Positions 3,083 to 12,313 of a stretch of DNA of 64,000 nt are shown here, one piece after another. Below the pieces are notes generated by a model that was not told the origin of the DNA, did no database searches, and was given only the letters and a program-made list of their open reading frames with translations. The DNA is from Candidatus Acidiferrales bacterium (GTDB taxonomy: Bacteria > Acidobacteriota > Terriglobia > Acidiferrales > UBA7541). Within the stretch, counting starts at the first letter, position 1. Each line of letters opens with the position of its first letter. The position numbers and the translations under genes were made by a program. The stretch is taken from NCBI GenBank assembly GCA_030037335.1, contig JASHRN010000171.1:1-64000 (forward strand), given 5' to 3'.

Positions 3083-4432
3083 TTATTGTTTGTAGATAAC
3101 GCCGCCCTTCATCACGAAGGAAACTCTTGTCACCACGCTGATGTCCTCGAGCGGGTTGCCGGGCACGGCGACAATGTCTGCAAAATATCCGGGTTTCAAA
3201 TCGCCGATCTGACCCTGCCACATCAGCACCTTGGCCCCTTCGAGCATGTCGGCTTGAAGCACGGCAAGCGGCTTCATTCCATACTGCGCCATCAGGACCA
3301 ATTCCCGCGTCTGCGTGCCGTGCATGAACGGGCCGACATCTGAACCGACGGCGAACGGAATGCCCGCGGCGATCTGCCGTTTGAATTGCTGCGCCTTAAA
3401 GTCGAGCACGGCGTGCTCGCTCGCCGCCGCAGCAGGCGAAGGTGCATGGTCCGCGAAATATTCGAAAACCGTAAACGTGGGAACGGCAGGAATATCTTTT
3501 TCGCGCATGATGCGCATGGTTTCGTCGCTCAGGTACGTCGCATGATCGATGGACTCGACTCCCGCCTGCGCGGCGTAGAGCGCGCCCGGTTCGCCATTGC
3601 AGTGCACGCCGACTTTGGTGCCCAGCCGCGCCGCTTCCTGCACTCCAGCCGCGAGCTGCGCTTCCGTGTATTGATATTGCGAAATGAATTTGCCGTCGCG
3701 CAGAACATCACGGCCCGTTTCGTACATTTTCACGAAATCGGAGCCTTCCTTGTGCTGCTCGCGAATGGTTTCGACGATTTCGTCTATGGTATTCGCGTAG
3801 TCAGCATTTCCCAGCACGTGCTGCGCGGGATTGAAGCCGACTGCGTCTTCATGCCCGCCGAGAATAGAGATGGCATTACCGCTGAGGCGCAGGCGCGGAC
3901 CGGGAATTTCGCCGAGATTGATGGCGTTGCGCACCGCGGTGTCTGCCGAGCCAGCGCCTTCTGTGCCCATATCCCGCTCCGCGGTGAATCCAGCCATCAA
4001 ATCAGCGCGGGCGTTGAGCGTCGCGGTGATGGTGCGCTCCGGCGCGGATTCGTCTACGGTCTGCATGCCTTCGTTGCCGGGATGCAAGAAAAGATGTACG
4101 TGCGCGTCGATCATGCCAGGCATGAGCGTTGTGTCTCCCAGATCAATCGTCTGGGCATCGGCGGGATGCGTGACCGAGCTGCCCACTTCGGCGATTTTGT
4201 CGCCGCGAATGAGCACTTCCCCAGGCGAAATAATTTTGCCTGACTCAATGTCAAGCAAACGCGCGGCGTGGAGCACGATGGGATGATCTGGAGGCGCGTA
4301 AGTGTGCTCGAAACCGTTATGCATCGTTTCGCTCTGCGCAAATGCGGCTGGGACGACAGCGATTGTGGTGAGAATCGAAAGTGCAAACAGAAGGATGCAA
4401 TTCGGGATAATGTGCGTGTAATTGTTTTTCAT
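3083..4432 (-). CDS. Amidohydrolase family protein (imidazolonepropionase-like), secreted
   Basis: 449 aa; signal peptide; PGMIDAHVHLFLHPG, GVHCNGEPGALYAAQAGVESIDHATYL, AVGSDVGPF, LKPGYFADIVAVPGNPL. Confidence 0.9.
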   Translation of the reverse strand: MKNNYTHIIPNCILLFALSILTTIAVVPAAFAQSETMHNGFEHTYAPPDHPIVLHAARLLDIESGKIISPGEVLIRGDKIAEVGSSVTHPADAQTIDLGDTTLMPGMIDAHVHLFLHPGNEGMQTVDESAPERTITATLNARADLMAGFTAERDMGTEGAGSADTAVRNAINLGEIPGPRLRLSGNAISILGGHEDAVGFNPAQHVLGNADYANTIDEIVETIREQHKEGSDFVKMYETGRDVLRDGKFISQYQYTEAQLAAGVQEAARLGTKVGVHCNGEPGALYAAQAGVESIDHATYLSDETMRIMREKDIPAVPTFTVFEYFADHAPSPAAAASEHAVLDFKAQQFKRQIAAGIPFAVGSDVGPFMHGTQTRELVLMAQYGMKPLAVLQADMLEGAKVLMWQGQIGDLKPGYFADIVAVPGNPLEDISVVTRVSFVMKGGVIYKQ

Positions 4433-4469
4433 GGCGCCGGAATAATACCACTTCCCATGCGGCTTGGAA

Positions 4470-4886
4470 TTACGACTGTATCCGCGCTTCGGCTGCGGCG
4501 CGGATGTCAGCCGGAAAAGGACACGCTTTGCGCGTTTGGCGGTCGAGGTGAACGGCTGTCAGCTCCGTGGTCGCGGCCACTGTGCCCTTCTCGATGTTGC
4601 GCATTTCGTGCACGAAGCGAATCACTTTGTCGCGAACCTCCAGGACTCGCGACCTGACTTCGATCACGTCGCCAGCAAACAATTCCTCTTTGTAAGTTGT
4701 GTTTTGCTGCACGCCGGCGATGCCGCGATGCTGTTCGCGCATATACGTGGGTGTAATTCCGAGCTCCGCGAACAAATTCCACGTCGCCTCGTCGAATTTT
4801 CCCGTATACCACATCACGTTCATGTGTCCCATGTGATCGCAGTGCCACGGATGCACCGCGCCCTTGTAGGTGAGCATGTCCATCAC
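4470..4886 (-). CDS. Acyl-CoA thioesterase, 4HBT/hotdog fold
   Basis: 138 aa; HPWHCDHMGHMNVMWYTGKFDEATWNLFAELGI typical of 4HBT proteins. Confidence 0.85.
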   Translation of the reverse strand: MMDMLTYKGAVHPWHCDHMGHMNVMWYTGKFDEATWNLFAELGITPTYMREQHRGIAGVQQNTTYKEELFAGDVIEVRSRVLEVRDKVIRFVHEMRNIEKGTVAATTELTAVHLDRQTRKACPFPADIRAAAEARIQS

Positions 4887-4982
4887 CTCTCCTTTCCCAT
4901 TCGGCGGCGACCGGTGATCTTAACAGCGAAATGCGGCTGCCAATCAGGAAGTAGGCCATGTCCGTGATAAAATAGATTTATC

Positions 4983-5361
4983 GGGGGCGAAACGGTTTCG
5001 ACGGAGGCTGTCGCGGCCCGAAGGCATGCCGGGCGTCACCTGCCCGCAATCGGGTGAATAAGTATAACTGCCAATCAGAACTTGGCACTCGCTGCTTAAT
5101 TAAAAACTAAGTAGCGCGTCTCCCTTCCTGTCGCCCACGCGGGGAGGATGAGGCGTCGCAATGTGGGCTGGCTGGTGCGTTTCGGCCCGTAATGCGCCAG
5201 CGAGATCATCGGGCTAGTTGGCCGCGTTTCTTGCTCGTTCTGAGCGCGGCTGGCGAACAGCGGAGTGCTGCGAGGCATGGCCGCACCGGAACGAGCTAAG
5301 CATGTAGTCTTCGTGCTACAAGGCCTCTCGGACGGGGGTTCAACTCCCCCCGCCTCCACCA
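4983..5361 (+). ncRNA. ssrA: tmRNA (transfer-messenger RNA), predicted tag ANQNLALAA
   Basis: 5' GGGGGCGAAACGGTTTCGACGG; 3' GACGGGGGTTCAACTCCCCCCGCCTCCACCA; acceptor stem GGGGGCG/CGCCTCC pairs; tag ORF GCC AAT CAG AAC TTG GCA CTC GCT GCT TAA at 5070-5099. Confidence 0.97.
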
Positions 5362-5451
5362 AATTGTAGACAGACCATCACGTCGGAGCTGCTGAAAGCT
5401 GAGCGTGCGACAGCGCGCACGTCTGCATGTGCTAGAATTCCGCGCGACAGA

Positions 5452-8169
5452 ATGGGGCTCCTGGCCGGCACAAAAATCGGTGCGTATGAAATCATTGCTC
5501 CGCTAGGCGCGGGCGGAATGGGAGAGGTCTACCGCGCCACAGATACGCGGCTCGGGCGCGAAGTCGCGATTAAAGTACTCCCCGCTTCATTTTCGCGCGA
5601 TTCTGAGAGGCTCAAGCGATTTGAGCAGGAAGCGCGTGCCGCGGGCCAGCTCAACCATCCGAACATTCTTACGGTTCACGAATTTGGCATGCATGACGGC
5701 GCGCCGTATGTCGTTTCGGAATTGCTGGAAGGTGAAACGCTGCGCCAGCGCCTCACCGATCGCGACGGGCGCCGCATGGGCAGCGTCTCCGGCGCCACCA
5801 CGGATGCGAACGCGCGGACTCCGGGAAGCTCCGGGCGTGACACGGGCACGAAAACTTTCACGGCAGGCGTTGCACTTCCACCGCGCAAGGCCATCGATTA
5901 CGGCGTGCAGATCGCCAATGGGCTCGCAGCGGCGCACGACAAAGGAATCGTTCACCGCGATCTGAAGCCGGAGAACATTTTCATTACGCGCGACGGCCGC
6001 GTGAAAATTCTCGACTTCGGCCTCGCGAAACTGATCGCTCCCGAAATCGATGGCGAAACACGAACGCAAGCCGGCCCGGCAACAGCGGTGACGGATGCAG
6101 GAGTGGTGCTCGGCACGGCGGGATACATGTCGCCAGAGCAGGTTCGCGCACAGAAAACCGATCATCGCTCGGACATTTTTTCCTTTGGCACGATTCTGTA
6201 CGAAATGCTCTCCGGCAAACGCGCGTTCCATCGCGATTCCAGCGTGGAGACAATGTCGGCAATTTTGAAGGACGAGCCGCAGGAGCTTTCGTCGACGGCG
6301 CATAATGTTTCTCCGGCGCTGCAACGCGTGGTGGACCACTGTTTGGAAAAGGATCTCGAGGCCCGTTTCCAATCCGCGCGCGACCTTGCGTTTGCGCTGG
6401 AAGCAGCCTCGGGGACCTCTGGAGCGAGCGCGTCCGAAACAGCTCTCGGTTCCGCGGCGGCTTCGCGCAAGAAACGAAAACTCGTTTTCGCCACGGTGGG
6501 CACGCTAGGCCTCATCGTTGTCGGCGTTGCGGCGTTCTTTCTCGGCAGACGCACAGCGGTGCAGACACTACCGTCCTTCCAACGACTGACTTTCCGGCGC
6601 GGACTCGTCGATACGGCACGCTTCAGCCCCGACGGACAGACGGTCTTATATTCTGCGGAATGGGAAGGCGGCCCGGTAAACGTTTTTTCCACTATGCCGG
6701 GCAGCCCCGAGTCGCGCTCGCTCGGCCTGCCTCCGTCGAGTGATCTTCTTGCTATCTCATCTTCGGGCGAGATCGCTCTGCTCCTGCGCGCGCAAAGGGC
6801 GGCGAACTCGTTTCAAATTGTCGGCACGCTGGCAGAAATGTCGCTGGGCGGTGGCGCGCCGCGAGAAATCCTCAAAAATGTCGTGGATGCCGATTGGTCG
6901 CCAGATGGAAAACAGTTGGCCGTTGTGCAGATGGAGCCCGACAAGGAGACGCTCGAATATCCTATCGGCAAAGTTCTGTACGAGACACAGGGCTGGATCG
7001 CAAGTCCGAGAATTTCCCCTGATGGGCAGCACATTGCCTTCGCCGATCACCCCGTTGTAGGTGATGATCTCGGCACAATCTGCACACTTAACCTTTCGGG
7101 AAAGAAAATCGCGCTCACGGAGCGTTTTGGCAGCCTCCAGGGCGTTGCGTGGTCTCGCTCAGGCAATGCGATTTGGTTCACAGCCGCACAGTCCGGATCA
7201 GACCGCGAGCTTTATTCGGTAACACTCTCCGGCAGCCAGCATCGGATTGCCCAAACTCCGAACGATATGACACTTTTTGACGTGGGCAAGGATGGTCGCG
7301 TCCTCGTCAAGCAAGAAGACAATCGCGGCGAGATGGTTGCGGAAATTGGTGAGGATACCGAGCGGCCGCTGACCTGGCTCGACCTCTCTGTCCCTGCCGA
7401 TGTGTCCGCAGACGGAAAGACGCTGCTCTTTACGGAAGCGGGCGATGGCGGCGGGTCTGACTACTCGGTTTACTTGCGTAAGCTCGACGGCTCACCCGCC
7501 GTGCTGCTGGGAGACGGGCTCGCGCTAACGCTTTCGCCGGATGGGCAGTGGGTCACTGCTTATAACGTTAGTGGCCCCGAACAAGGGCACCTCTCTCTGC
7601 TTCCGACGGGCCCAGGACAGGCTCGCCAGTTGACCGCGAGCAGTGCTGCAGAGTATGCGCCTGCTTGGCTGCCCGATGGCAAGAGTATCCTGTTTACCGG
7701 AGGAGAAAAAGATGGCGGCGAGCGCGTCTACATGCAAGCGATCGATGGCGGTGCGCCGCGCGCCATCACGCCCGAAGGTTTCGAGTCCCCGGTACCTGAC
7801 GCCATCTCGCCTGATGGGAAATCATTCATTGCGCGCAGGACCTCGGATGGCGCCTGGGTTATTCTTCCCATCCTCGGAGGGCCGCCGCGCTCCATTCCCG
7901 GCACAGTGCCGGAGGATACTCCGCTCCGATGGACGCAGGATGACCGCTCGATCTATGTCGCCGAACTCGGCAGTTCGTCCTCGCCTGCGGAAATCTTCAG
8001 GCTGGATCTCGCCACCGGAAAACACACACTGGTGAAGGAATTAGTCCCTGGCGATCGCGCCGGGTTTTGGGGAGTTGATCACGCGGCCATTTCGGCAGAT
8101 GGCAAGACCATCGTGTTTGCGTACCACCGCCTCATTTCCAATCTCTACCTGCTCAAAACTGCGAGGTGA
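5452..8169 (+). CDS. Serine/threonine protein kinase with C-terminal TolB/WD40-like propeller
   Basis: 905 aa; [49 protein letters not shown] segment LVFATVGTLGLIVVGVAAFFLG; repeated SPDGKQ-type propeller motifs. Confidence 0.95.
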   Translation: MGLLAGTKIGAYEIIAPLGAGGMGEVYRATDTRLGREVAIKVLPASFSRDSERLKRFEQEARAAGQLNHPNILTVHEFGMHDGAPYVVSELLEGETLRQRLTDRDGRRMGSVSGATTDANARTPGSSGRDTGTKTFTAGVALPPRKAIDYGVQIANGLAAAHDKGIVHRDLKPENIFITRDGRVKILDFGLAKLIAPEIDGETRTQAGPATAVTDAGVVLGTAGYMSPEQVRAQKTDHRSDIFSFGTILYEMLSGKRAFHRDSSVETMSAILKDEPQELSSTAHNVSPALQRVVDHCLEKDLEARFQSARDLAFALEAASGTSGASASETALGSAAASRKKRKLVFATVGTLGLIVVGVAAFFLGRRTAVQTLPSFQRLTFRRGLVDTARFSPDGQTVLYSAEWEGGPVNVFSTMPGSPESRSLGLPPSSDLLAISSSGEIALLLRAQRAANSFQIVGTLAEMSLGGGAPREILKNVVDADWSPDGKQLAVVQMEPDKETLEYPIGKVLYETQGWIASPRISPDGQHIAFADHPVVGDDLGTICTLNLSGKKIALTERFGSLQGVAWSRSGNAIWFTAAQSGSDRELYSVTLSGSQHRIAQTPNDMTLFDVGKDGRVLVKQEDNRGEMVAEIGEDTERPLTWLDLSVPADVSADGKTLLFTEAGDGGGSDYSVYLRKLDGSPAVLLGDGLALTLSPDGQWVTAYNVSGPEQGHLSLLPTGPGQARQLTASSAAEYAPAWLPDGKSILFTGGEKDGGERVYMQAIDGGAPRAITPEGFESPVPDAISPDGKSFIARRTSDGAWVILPILGGPPRSIPGTVPEDTPLRWTQDDRSIYVAELGSSSSPAEIFRLDLATGKHTLVKELVPGDRAGFWGVDHAAISADGKTIVFAYHRLISNLYLLKTAR

Positions 8170-9475: not shown

Positions 9476-10135
9476 TTAGCGGCCGGCCGAGGCGCTTTTG
9501 GCTTTGTCGGCGCGGACGGCCGGCACATCGACGAGATGCTCGGCCAAGAACCAGACTTGCAGTTCATTGGTGCGAATCACCTCGCTGACGATCAGATCGT
9601 TGGTGCCATCATCGCCGCCGTCGTCGGCATCGCGCGCGAATATTCGCGCCTCCTTCAAAATAATTTCGTGCGCCTCGAGAAGACGTGAAAGCTGCACAGG
9701 GAGCTCTTCGCGGCCACGCGGCGGACGTGGAATCAGCGTCGTTTCGGCAACATCCGAGGCCATCGCGATGCTGACACCGCCAAGGGTCTGAATGCGCTCG
9801 GCGATAGCATCGACGAGCTCATTTTGCTCACCATAATGCTTATCGAACAGCAGATGGATTTGGTAGAAGGTGTGGCCGGTGACCTGCCAGTGATGCTTTT
9901 TGTACATATCGCGAAGCGTGATCGTGTCGGCCAGAAGCTGATTGAGATTTTCGGAGCTCGTGGCGCAGACTTTTTCATCAAGCGCGATGGGAAGCTTGGC
10001 AATTTTGCCGTAGGGCTGAATCTCATGGGCGTGCTGATGCAGGATCGGTCTCGATTGAGAGGACCCGGATTCTAATTGATTGTAATCGGGGGTGCGCTTA
10101 TCGTTTTTTGGGCTCATCGTTATTCTCTCCTTCAT
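9476..10135 (-). CDS. dps: Dps/ferritin-like DNA-protection protein
   Basis: 219 aa; LNQLLADTITLRDMYKKHHWQVTGHTFYQIHLLFDKHYGEQNELVDAIAERIQTLGG. Confidence 0.92.
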   Translation of the reverse strand: MKERITMSPKNDKRTPDYNQLESGSSQSRPILHQHAHEIQPYGKIAKLPIALDEKVCATSSENLNQLLADTITLRDMYKKHHWQVTGHTFYQIHLLFDKHYGEQNELVDAIAERIQTLGGVSIAMASDVAETTLIPRPPRGREELPVQLSRLLEAHEIILKEARIFARDADDGGDDGTNDLIVSEVIRTNELQVWFLAEHLVDVPAVRADKAKSASAGR

Positions 10136-10167: not shown

Positions 10168-11301
10168 TCAGCGAACCGCGTGGGCTACAGCATGATGATG
10201 ATTTGAGCCGGGGCTTTTCTTCGTACGCTTGGCGTGCGTGGCGCGATCGAAATAGCCGATCCGCTCGAGAACGGCTCCAACAATGAGCGGCAGGGAAACT
10301 GTCGCATCGTCGAATACTTCGGCGAAGCGTCCGCCTTCATCCGGCGGAACGAATTTTCCCCAGGAAACGGCCTCGGTGTATGTGCTGCCGGAGAGGCCGC
10401 CCCAATGAACGGGCTCAGGACAGATGCGCAGCCCATAATTGTAGCGTTTCAATGGCATATCCTCATATCCGCGCCGCGCGAGCAATTCTGCATACACGCC
10501 GAACTGCTGCGACCAATTTCGCGGAACACCGCCGCCAATCGTGAAAATTCCCATGCGATCCGTGGCGAGCATGATTTCAGCAAAATGCTCGAAATCTGCA
10601 AATGAATCGAAGCGGAGGGGATCGCGGCCTTCCTTGCGGCGCTGGCGGCAATGGAGCGCGAAGTCGATGCCCAGCTCTGAATCAGTGAAAGCGGGAATGA
10701 AAACGGGAACGTTCTTTTCAAGGGCGGATTTGAGGATTCCGCGGCCGGGCGCGTACCGATGTAGATATTCTCCGATGCGCTGATTCAACTTCCAACTGCA
10801 GACCGTTTCTTCCGGATCCCATTTATCCAGGAGCGCCTCGACAATTTCCTCGATGTAGTCGAGATTCAGCTCCGGCTCGAGCGAATCGTAAACGCGGTTG
10901 TATCCAGCAAAGAAGAGCTCTTTGTCGCACATCTTGGGGTCATAGCGGAAATGATGTTTGCCAGCGGCTTCGACGAGGCCGTGAGCCATCAGCGCCCCAG
11001 TCGAAACGACGGCTTTCACAATGCCGGAATCGATCAAATCACAAAAAACCAAGCCCATTTTCGCGACGGTCATCGCACCGGAAAGAGTAAGCACGACGAA
11101 GCAATCTTTGTCGCGCGCCATGGCTTCAAGGACGTCCGCCGCATCGCCGACCTGGCGTCCGGTAAAAGCAGTCTGGCCCATCGCGCGGACAAGCTCATCG
11201 ACAGTATGCGTTTTGGAAAGATCCAGCGGATAAATCGGAGTCAGTCGATCCTCAATCGGATCGTGCAGAACTCTTCCCGTCAGGCCCTTTTTCTTTGCCA
11301 T
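10168..11301 (-). CDS. Deoxyhypusine synthase-like protein (possible bacterial homospermidine synthase)
   Basis: 377 aa; VLTLSGAMTVAKMGLVFCDLIDSGIVKAVVSTGALMAHGLVEA, TIGGGVPRNWSQQ, and TEAVSWGKF matching the EAVSWGK active-site lysine motif of DHS enzymes. Confidence 0.9.
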   Translation of the reverse strand: MAKKKGLTGRVLHDPIEDRLTPIYPLDLSKTHTVDELVRAMGQTAFTGRQVGDAADVLEAMARDKDCFVVLTLSGAMTVAKMGLVFCDLIDSGIVKAVVSTGALMAHGLVEAAGKHHFRYDPKMCDKELFFAGYNRVYDSLEPELNLDYIEEIVEALLDKWDPEETVCSWKLNQRIGEYLHRYAPGRGILKSALEKNVPVFIPAFTDSELGIDFALHCRQRRKEGRDPLRFDSFADFEHFAEIMLATDRMGIFTIGGGVPRNWSQQFGVYAELLARRGYEDMPLKRYNYGLRICPEPVHWGGLSGSTYTEAVSWGKFVPPDEGGRFAEVFDDATVSLPLIVGAVLERIGYFDRATHAKRTKKSPGSNHHHAVAHAVR

Positions 11302-11410
11302 TCAGCATCCTCAAAGGTAATGTATCACCTTCGAAGCATTTCTGCGGGCTATAAATAGTACAGAGCGGGAAAAGAAGGAAGAAAAAATTTCACCTCAAGG
11401 AAATGTACTC

Positions 11411-12313
11411 GTGCCTCTAAAAACCTACGCTGCTGTGACACCGGAAAACTTTGGGGGAATTCCGGAAGAAAGTTCAAAGTACGAAACTTCGCGCGCTGTA
11501 ATTTTCCCGATTCCGCTCGAGCGCACCACAACTTACGAGCATGGCACTCGAAACGGTCCGAATGCGATTATCGCGGCCAGCCGCAACATGGAAACATGGG
11601 ATGAAGAGCTGGGCATTGAGACATTCGCGAAAATCGGAATCGCAACGCTGCCGGCGATCGATACCGCCGAAGGAACGCTCGAAAAAGTGCTGGCGGACAT
11701 TCATGCTACCGAGCTTGCGCTGCTTTCGGACGGAAAGTTCCCGTTGGCGCTGGGAGGCGAGCATTCGCTGACTCCGCCTTTGGTCTCTGCGGCGGTGAAA
11801 AAGTTTCCCGATTTGACAGTGCTGCAAATCGATGCGCATGCGGATTTGCGCGAAGCGTATCAGGGCAACCCCGCGAGCCACGCTTCAGCCATGCGGCGCG
11901 TTGTGGAGATGTGCCCGGCAGTGCAGGTGGCGATCCGATCGTTGTCCGTGGAAGAAGCGGAGGCCATTCCCCATTTGCGTACCAAGGTTTATTGGGCACG
12001 GGACATTGCGCGTGCGCCGCTTGAAAAATGGATTCCGCGCGTGATTGCGGATCTTTCGCAACACGTTTATCTGACTGTGGATTTGGATGGATTCGACCCC
12101 GCTTACATGCCCGCGACTGGCACACCGGAGCCGGGCGGACTCGATTGGTATCAGGTCACGACGCTGATTCGAGAAGTGGCACAAGCGCGAAAGATTGTGG
12201 CCGCAGACGTCGTGGAGTTGTTGCCGCAGCATGGGGATCACGCATCGGATTTCCTTGCGGCGAAGCTGATCTACAAGATTCTGGGTTATGCGCTGTACAT
12301 GAAGCGAAAGTAG
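11411..12313 (+). CDS. speB: Agmatinase/arginase (ureohydrolase) family protein
   Basis: 300 aa; LALGGEHSLTPPL, LQIDAHADLREAYQGNPASHASAMRR, LTVDLDGFDPAYMPATGTPEPGGL metal-binding motifs. Confidence 0.9.
   Translation: MPLKTYAAVTPENFGGIPEESSKYETSRAVIFPIPLERTTTYEHGTRNGPNAIIAASRNMETWDEELGIETFAKIGIATLPAIDTAEGTLEKVLADIHATELALLSDGKFPLALGGEHSLTPPLVSAAVKKFPDLTVLQIDAHADLREAYQGNPASHASAMRRVVEMCPAVQVAIRSLSVEEAEAIPHLRTKVYWARDIARAPLEKWIPRVIADLSQHVYLTVDLDGFDPAYMPATGTPEPGGLDWYQVTTLIREVAQARKIVAADVVELLPQHGDHASDFLAAKLIYKILGYALYMKRK

Follow-up and report, generated by a model that had tools for sequence, protein, structure and literature searches.

Clusters that bring together an arginine decarboxylase (ADC) and an enzyme of the deoxyhypusine synthase (DHS) family have been published as ADC-AUH-SpeY from Pelagibacter and ADC-AIH-NCPAH-SpeY from Fonsibacter (PMC9992855), and SpeD_A-SpeB-SpeY clusters are described from many phyla (PMC10407285). 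In Thermus thermophilus the pairing of CdmS with SpeB is established (PMC10981699). A further cluster, in haloarchaea, joins DHS and agmatinase to the acceptor aIF5A (PMC5178350); the locus reported here has the same linkage of a DHS homolog, which we call DHS-A, with an agmatinase, but no acceptor was found in it. It resembles the first group in having an ADC, an agmatinase or the equivalent of AIH/NCPAH, and a DHS-family enzyme, with the same alternative middle steps, but the ADCs of those clusters are derived from ODC or SpeD, whereas an archaeal-type pyruvoyl enzyme (PvlArgDC) is used here, and the Pelagibacteraceae proteins are about 30-32% identical to DHS-A and belong to a different clade. 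Given the published ADC/AUH/SpeY-type clusters and CdmS with SpeB, the pathway is of a known kind, and its new elements are the enzyme subfamily, PvlArgDC as the decarboxylase, and two-way replacements inside one bacterial family.

The DNA analyzed, hereafter the window, is positions 1-64,000 of the forward strand of contig JASHRN010000171.1 from Candidatus Acidiferrales bacterium (GCA_030037335.1). An earlier note on this sequence had described a DHS homolog divergent from an agmatinase, and both open reading frames are present where it placed them, with start codons back to back, although the gap is 109 bp and not 110 bp. The features are as follows.

9476-10135, minus strand: Dps-like ferritin (PF00210), downstream of DHS-A after a 32 bp gap.
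10168-11301, minus strand: DHS-A, a deoxyhypusine-synthase-family enzyme of 377 aa and candidate homospermidine synthase (SpeY-like), from PF01916, active-site residues, and fold.
11302-11410, no strand: divergent intergenic region of 109 bp, from the sequence, aligned with 14 relatives.
11307-11324, minus strand: conserved block that on the DHS strand reads TACATT (-10-like) .. GAGG (putative ribosome-binding site) and holds the left part of a 14-mer singled out by the earlier note, from the alignment.
11411-12313, plus strand: agmatinase (SpeB/AUH) of 300 aa with a GTG start, predicted to convert agmatine to putrescine and urea, from TIGR01230 and metal-ligand motifs.

Our reading, to which we give a probability of about two in three, is that these are two genes of a three-step route from arginine through agmatine and putrescine to homospermidine, in which DHS-A would act as a homospermidine synthase of the SpeY kind. 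Agmatine would be made by a pyruvoyl-dependent arginine decarboxylase, whose gene lies on another contig of this genome (G000:C53) but beside DHS-A in nearly all relatives, and the agmatinase at 11411-12313 would hydrolyze it to putrescine and urea, a step for which related genera would use AguA and AguB. DHS-A would then oxidize putrescine with bound NAD, keeping the aminobutyl group attached to K316 through an imine, and would pass that group to a second putrescine, with a reduction giving homospermidine. The substrate, product, and NAD dependence of DHS-A are predictions.

A Pfam profile search scores DHS-A against PF01916 at 252.5 bits (E = 6.4 × 10−75) where the gathering cutoff is 27. 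The AlphaFold model has a mean pLDDT of 87.8, with lowest certainty at residues 300-304, and its top PDB matches are human DHS structures, several with NAD, at TM scores of 0.7-0.8; Foldseek gives E = 2 × 10−20 and TM scores of 0.74/0.83 against human DHS. By gathering score, DHS fold, and the residues K316, W314, and E310, DHS-A is a member of the deoxyhypusine synthase superfamily (PF01916). It falls below every NCBIfam DHS equivalog cutoff, scoring 212.8 bits against the 500 needed for NF002699 (caldomycin/BGAN synthase CdmS) and 147 against the 450 for NF001980 (homospermidine biosynthesis protein), while the best-scoring model is NF002006 (PRK00805) with 237 of 434 bits. A search for a PRK00770 reference sequence in five genomes, chosen by way of named loci, gave nothing at or above the cutoff. 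A phage origin was considered and dropped after a search of 50,697 phage records gave no match to DHS-A. The neighbor is a metal-dependent ureohydrolase, as had been proposed, scoring 235.8 bits to TIGR01230 (equivalog cutoff 174.3) with intact metal-ligand motifs GGEHS at 115, DAHAD at 141, DLDGFDPA at 224, and VELLP at 268, and matching the agmatine ureohydrolase PDB ID: 3pzl at E = 2 × 10−45. The Dps-like ferritin also lies directly downstream of DHS-A in G037, a genome of the same genus, and beside DHS-A in none of the other genera examined; it is possibly a co-transcribed passenger in the window's genus only. The window also carries a tmRNA gene at 5000-5361 (Rfam RF00023, 147.9 bits), where the 5′ end of the match is set by the start of the search at 5000.

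The human DHS sequence used as a ruler for the active site was checked at 21 known residue positions. We take its NAD site to be S105, N106, E137, D238, A309, D313, and D342, and its spermidine site to be D243, H288, D316, E323, W327, and K329. The TEAVSWGK motif that the earlier note had pointed out is there in the 377-aa protein, with its catalytic lysine K316 aligning to human K329, and the alignment shows D238, G314, S317, E323, W327, K329, and D342 all kept (K316, W314, E310, and D207 being among these in the numbering of DHS-A itself). The substitutions, in human numbering, are S105G, N106A, E137H, D243I, H288N, A309E, D313W, and D316L. Retention of the NAD-binding residues, which the earlier note had put forward as a check, is therefore partial, with D238 and D342 retained and S105, N106, E137, A309, and D313 substituted; the first three of the substituted positions are likewise changed in NF002699-type proteins and other bacterial families making homospermidine or caldomycin. 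A309E and D313W, which count against our reading, set DHS-A apart from its characterized relatives and adjoin the NAD/substrate pocket, where the AlphaFold model is least certain. The spermidine-binding Asp243, His288, and Asp316 of authentic DHS become I212, N262, and L303. Of these positions, Asp243 and Asp316 have been discussed together with Lys329 for CdmS (PMC10981699), and His288 with Lys329 elsewhere (PMC7226451).

If DHS-A were a true deoxyhypusine synthase or other protein-modifying enzyme, it would pass the aminobutyl group to a protein lysine, which would suit a fold shared with human DHS and would have a parallel in the haloarchaeal cluster, where modification with agmatine followed by deguanidination has been proposed (PMC5178350). 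We regard this as very improbable, since Ile and Asn replace the human Asp243 and His288, no candidate acceptor gene lies within the cluster, SpeD-type spermidine synthesis is absent from the genus, and the eIF5A domain (PF01287) is in 0 of 89 genomes of the family by a search whose control matched in 2 of 4 DHS-bearing archaeal genomes. The SpeD count is 0 of 5 genomes of the window's genus, so that homospermidine would be the main triamine; a second triamine, made by CASDH/CASDC or HSS-type enzymes, is possible.

The gene neighborhood was compared over the window's GTDB family, comprising 89 genomes in 13 genera. DHS-A is present in 63 of the 89 and the pyruvoyl ADC (PF01862) in 84, with the SpeA type in 0. 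In 59 of the 63 genomes with DHS-A, the ADC lies within 5 kb of it, always on the opposite strand and convergent, and in the other four, including the window's genome, where this counts against our reading, it is on a different contig. There, on G000:C53, it sits with a metallo-beta-lactamase-fold gene and a 5′-nucleotidase-like gene, while G037 carries in one run AUH, DHS-A, Dps, MurB, the beta-lactamase-fold gene, ADC, and 5′-nucleotidase, which indicates that a rearrangement or an assembly fault has split off the ADC in the window's genome. With this ADC linkage, and with either AUH or AguB and AguA (AguBA) beside DHS-A in most genomes, the SpeY-type genomic link to putrescine-making genes is present. 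The arginine/agmatine-to-homospermidine module of the earlier note is well supported, and better than the gene pair by itself would allow, by the adjacent ADC and by the exchange of AUH for AguB/AguA described below, while its chemistry is still a prediction.

Of the 89 genomes, 25 have the window-type agmatinase (AUH), which adjoins DHS-A in the window's genus and in certain other genera. Genus g2, along with a few more, instead has N-carbamoylputrescine amidohydrolase (AguB) and agmatine deiminase (AguA) at that divergent position, assignments that score below the NCBI cutoffs but are the best and near full-length matches. AguA is present in 70 of 89, and in 34 genomes it takes the position of AUH, divergent to DHS-A and 1.1-4.2 kb away from it, with AguB between them where looked at. 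AUH and AguA are anticorrelated (Fisher 4 × 10−5, and 2.6 × 10−6 in genomes at least 90% complete) with 12 genomes having both. The family counts, those of DHS-A and DHS-B included, take no account of shared ancestry, though several genera (g1, g5, g6, g7, g11, g13) show switches among their own members. The earlier note had asked for conservation of the gene pair, and the pair is kept in the genus and related genera far beyond chance, but an obligate pairing fails, as most DHS-A genomes have AguBA, and some genomes of the same genus keep the agmatinase without DHS-A. DHS-A proteins of 74-80% identity are served by either of two routes from agmatine, and as both end in putrescine, this is most simply explained if putrescine is what DHS-A consumes. 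If AguA conceivably acted on guanidino-polyamines, the argument from this exchange would be weakened.

The exchange bears most directly on the route by which caldomycin is made in Thermus thermophilus. DHS-A would there couple two agmatines into 1,9-bis(guanidino)-5-azanonane, and the ureohydrolase would strip both guanidino groups to leave homospermidine, as CdmS with SpeB is proven to do in Thermus (PMC10981699). DHS-A too has a ureohydrolase for a neighbor, and it resembles CdmS in carrying Leu where human DHS has Asp316 and a hydrophobic residue where human DHS has Asp243. We mapped CdmS through a Trueperaceae homolog, L113, in which S67, F204, L286, E293, and K299 each lie exactly 4 positions earlier and E136 and D143 are E132 and D139; by this path CdmS E136, D143, L286, E293, and K299 all find their match in E144, E151, L303, E310, and K316 of DHS-A. 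Predicting the substrate from active-site residues alone was tried and abandoned, as every bacterial type compared retains the second-substrate acids of CdmS, which do not discriminate, so that the residues by themselves leave the substrate of DHS-A unfixed. DHS-A differs from CdmS in that Ser67, modeled as binding the guanidino group of agmatine, is Ala76, Phe204 is Ile, and Asp313 (human numbering) is Trp. The score to NF002699 and a position outside that clade also speak against this route, as does the persistence of AUH without DHS-A. The main argument is that the ureohydrolase is replaceable by AguB/AguA, the pair beside DHS-A in the 34 relatives, for which agmatine and N-carbamoylputrescine are the substrates known, an argument that is indirect because the specificity of AguA is presumed. 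On balance we consider coupling of two agmatines unlikely and prefer the putrescine-consuming, SpeY-like reading.

A second PF01916 type, DHS-B, is 25% identical to DHS-A and occurs in 26 of the 89 genomes; it is nearly always present where DHS-A is missing. The two are nearly mutually exclusive, with both in 5 of 89 (including the window's genome) and neither in 5 (Fisher 2 × 10−11), and, as a check on incompleteness, restricting the count to genomes of at least 90% completeness leaves the exclusion in place (Fisher 6 × 10−8). The copy in the window's genome lies outside the window:

L002 1447-2433 (G000:C147:46017-47003): DHS-B, catalytic lysine kept, adjoining a NicO nickel transporter.

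DHS-B is far under every NCBIfam DHS cutoff, has a stem of 7.3 changes per site in the tree, carries Y313, Y316, and D288 (human numbering), and is likewise constrained, with dN/dS of 0.05. ADC and AUH remain where DHS-A is gone, as in G038 and G040 of the same genus and in G071, indicating that the last step, the triamine synthase, is what is replaced while the putrescine supply is kept. Having both types in five genomes including this one, and DHS-A cleanly missing from two of the same genus, might mean that DHS-A is a catabolic or promiscuous polyamine enzyme, or a paralog nearing loss here as DHS-B is also present. That is quite improbable, since DHS-A is full length with all core catalytic residues kept, and dN/dS within the genus is 0.03-0.09 for DHS-A and the agmatinase, a sign of purifying selection and hence that DHS-A is not decaying. 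It is rather doubtful that DHS-A and DHS-B are independently diverged subfamilies, repeatedly replacing each other in Acidobacteriota and altered in the NAD/substrate pocket, of which at least one would have an undescribed triamine chemistry or substrate choice, such as mixed coupling of agmatine and putrescine. Elsewhere in the phylum, a DHS homolog at L206 1414-2469 has DFDQAQSYGR instead of EAxSWGK (K329R, W327Y, and E323Q in human numbering) and is probably catalytically dead; its genome (G311) has three PF01916 matches, and the case resembles the inactive DHS paralog of trypanosomatids (PMC3663545).

In the tree all DHS-A sequences group in a single clade with 100/100 support, carried by a stem of 3.6 changes per site. 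The node that unites this clade with NF002006-like proteins is weak (86/72), and SAR11, Sphingomonas, cyanobacterial, and Deinococcota proteins fall elsewhere, in the NF002699 clade; since long branches meet there, by a warning of the tree program, the deep placement is unsure. With NF002006-like proteins it shares W313, H137, and A106 (L177, L178, L182, L193) and, as in L177 (G094), N288, human numbering throughout, and an agmatinase stands next door in L177 and L178, but the partial model score, the long stem, and the weak node set DHS-A apart from them. The closest relative outside Acidobacteriota, L102 from a Nitrospira MAG, is 50% identical and falls inside the acidobacterial clade. At L102 8001-13338 are encoded a DHS-A-like protein, an aldehyde dehydrogenase-like protein, a pyruvoyl ADC, and an agmatinase, putting DHS, ADC, and AUH within 5.3 kb, which suggests transfer of the module. 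In the Sphingomonas plasmid L094, at 3491-5960, the gene immediately before a DHS homolog that carries the NCBIfam name BGAN synthase resembles type III PLP-dependent decarboxylases; the name may be too specific for the group if the decarboxylase makes putrescine from ornithine.

The earlier note had also proposed a shared 14-bp control element, GGTAATGTATCACC, located at 11316-11329. It is not an operator-like conserved palindrome, being mostly the -10/Shine-Dalgarno block of the DHS gene, and as an operator it was set aside, with 2 occurrences in the window at up to 3 mismatches against 1.5 expected by chance. Only its left part (CAGGTAATGTA) is conserved across relatives, the DHS strand reading TACATTACCTG..GAGG..ATG, while conservation of the right half (TATCACC) is limited to the genus. 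The core common to the 14 aligned relatives is CTCGCAGGTAATGTA, or TACATTACCTGCGAGG on the DHS strand followed by the start codon. Each of 17 loci from relatives has a single copy of the pattern TACAT[TC]ACCTG[CT]GAGG..ATG, from which the window departs to CCTTTGAGG, and from this pattern we infer a -10-like box and the ribosome-binding site of the DHS gene. A further short element in the gap, ATA[TG]TACA, is kept in many loci whether the gene opposite is AUH, AguB, or Transgly_assoc, and is a candidate for the other promoter. Scans of the region for sigma-70 promoters and terminators gave nothing above shuffled sequence, and a riboswitch was dismissed for want of an Rfam match near the locus.

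No report of homospermidine synthesis in Acidobacteria came to light in our literature search, which was of incomplete coverage. If the SpeY-like reading is right, a widespread soil phylum would gain a defined homospermidine pathway, one unnamed by the NCBIfam DHS models, in which the last enzyme and the step that yields putrescine would have been exchanged independently of each other. The family would then offer a natural experiment, DHS-A with agmatinase versus DHS-A with AguB/AguA, for separating putrescine-using from agmatine-using DHS homologs.
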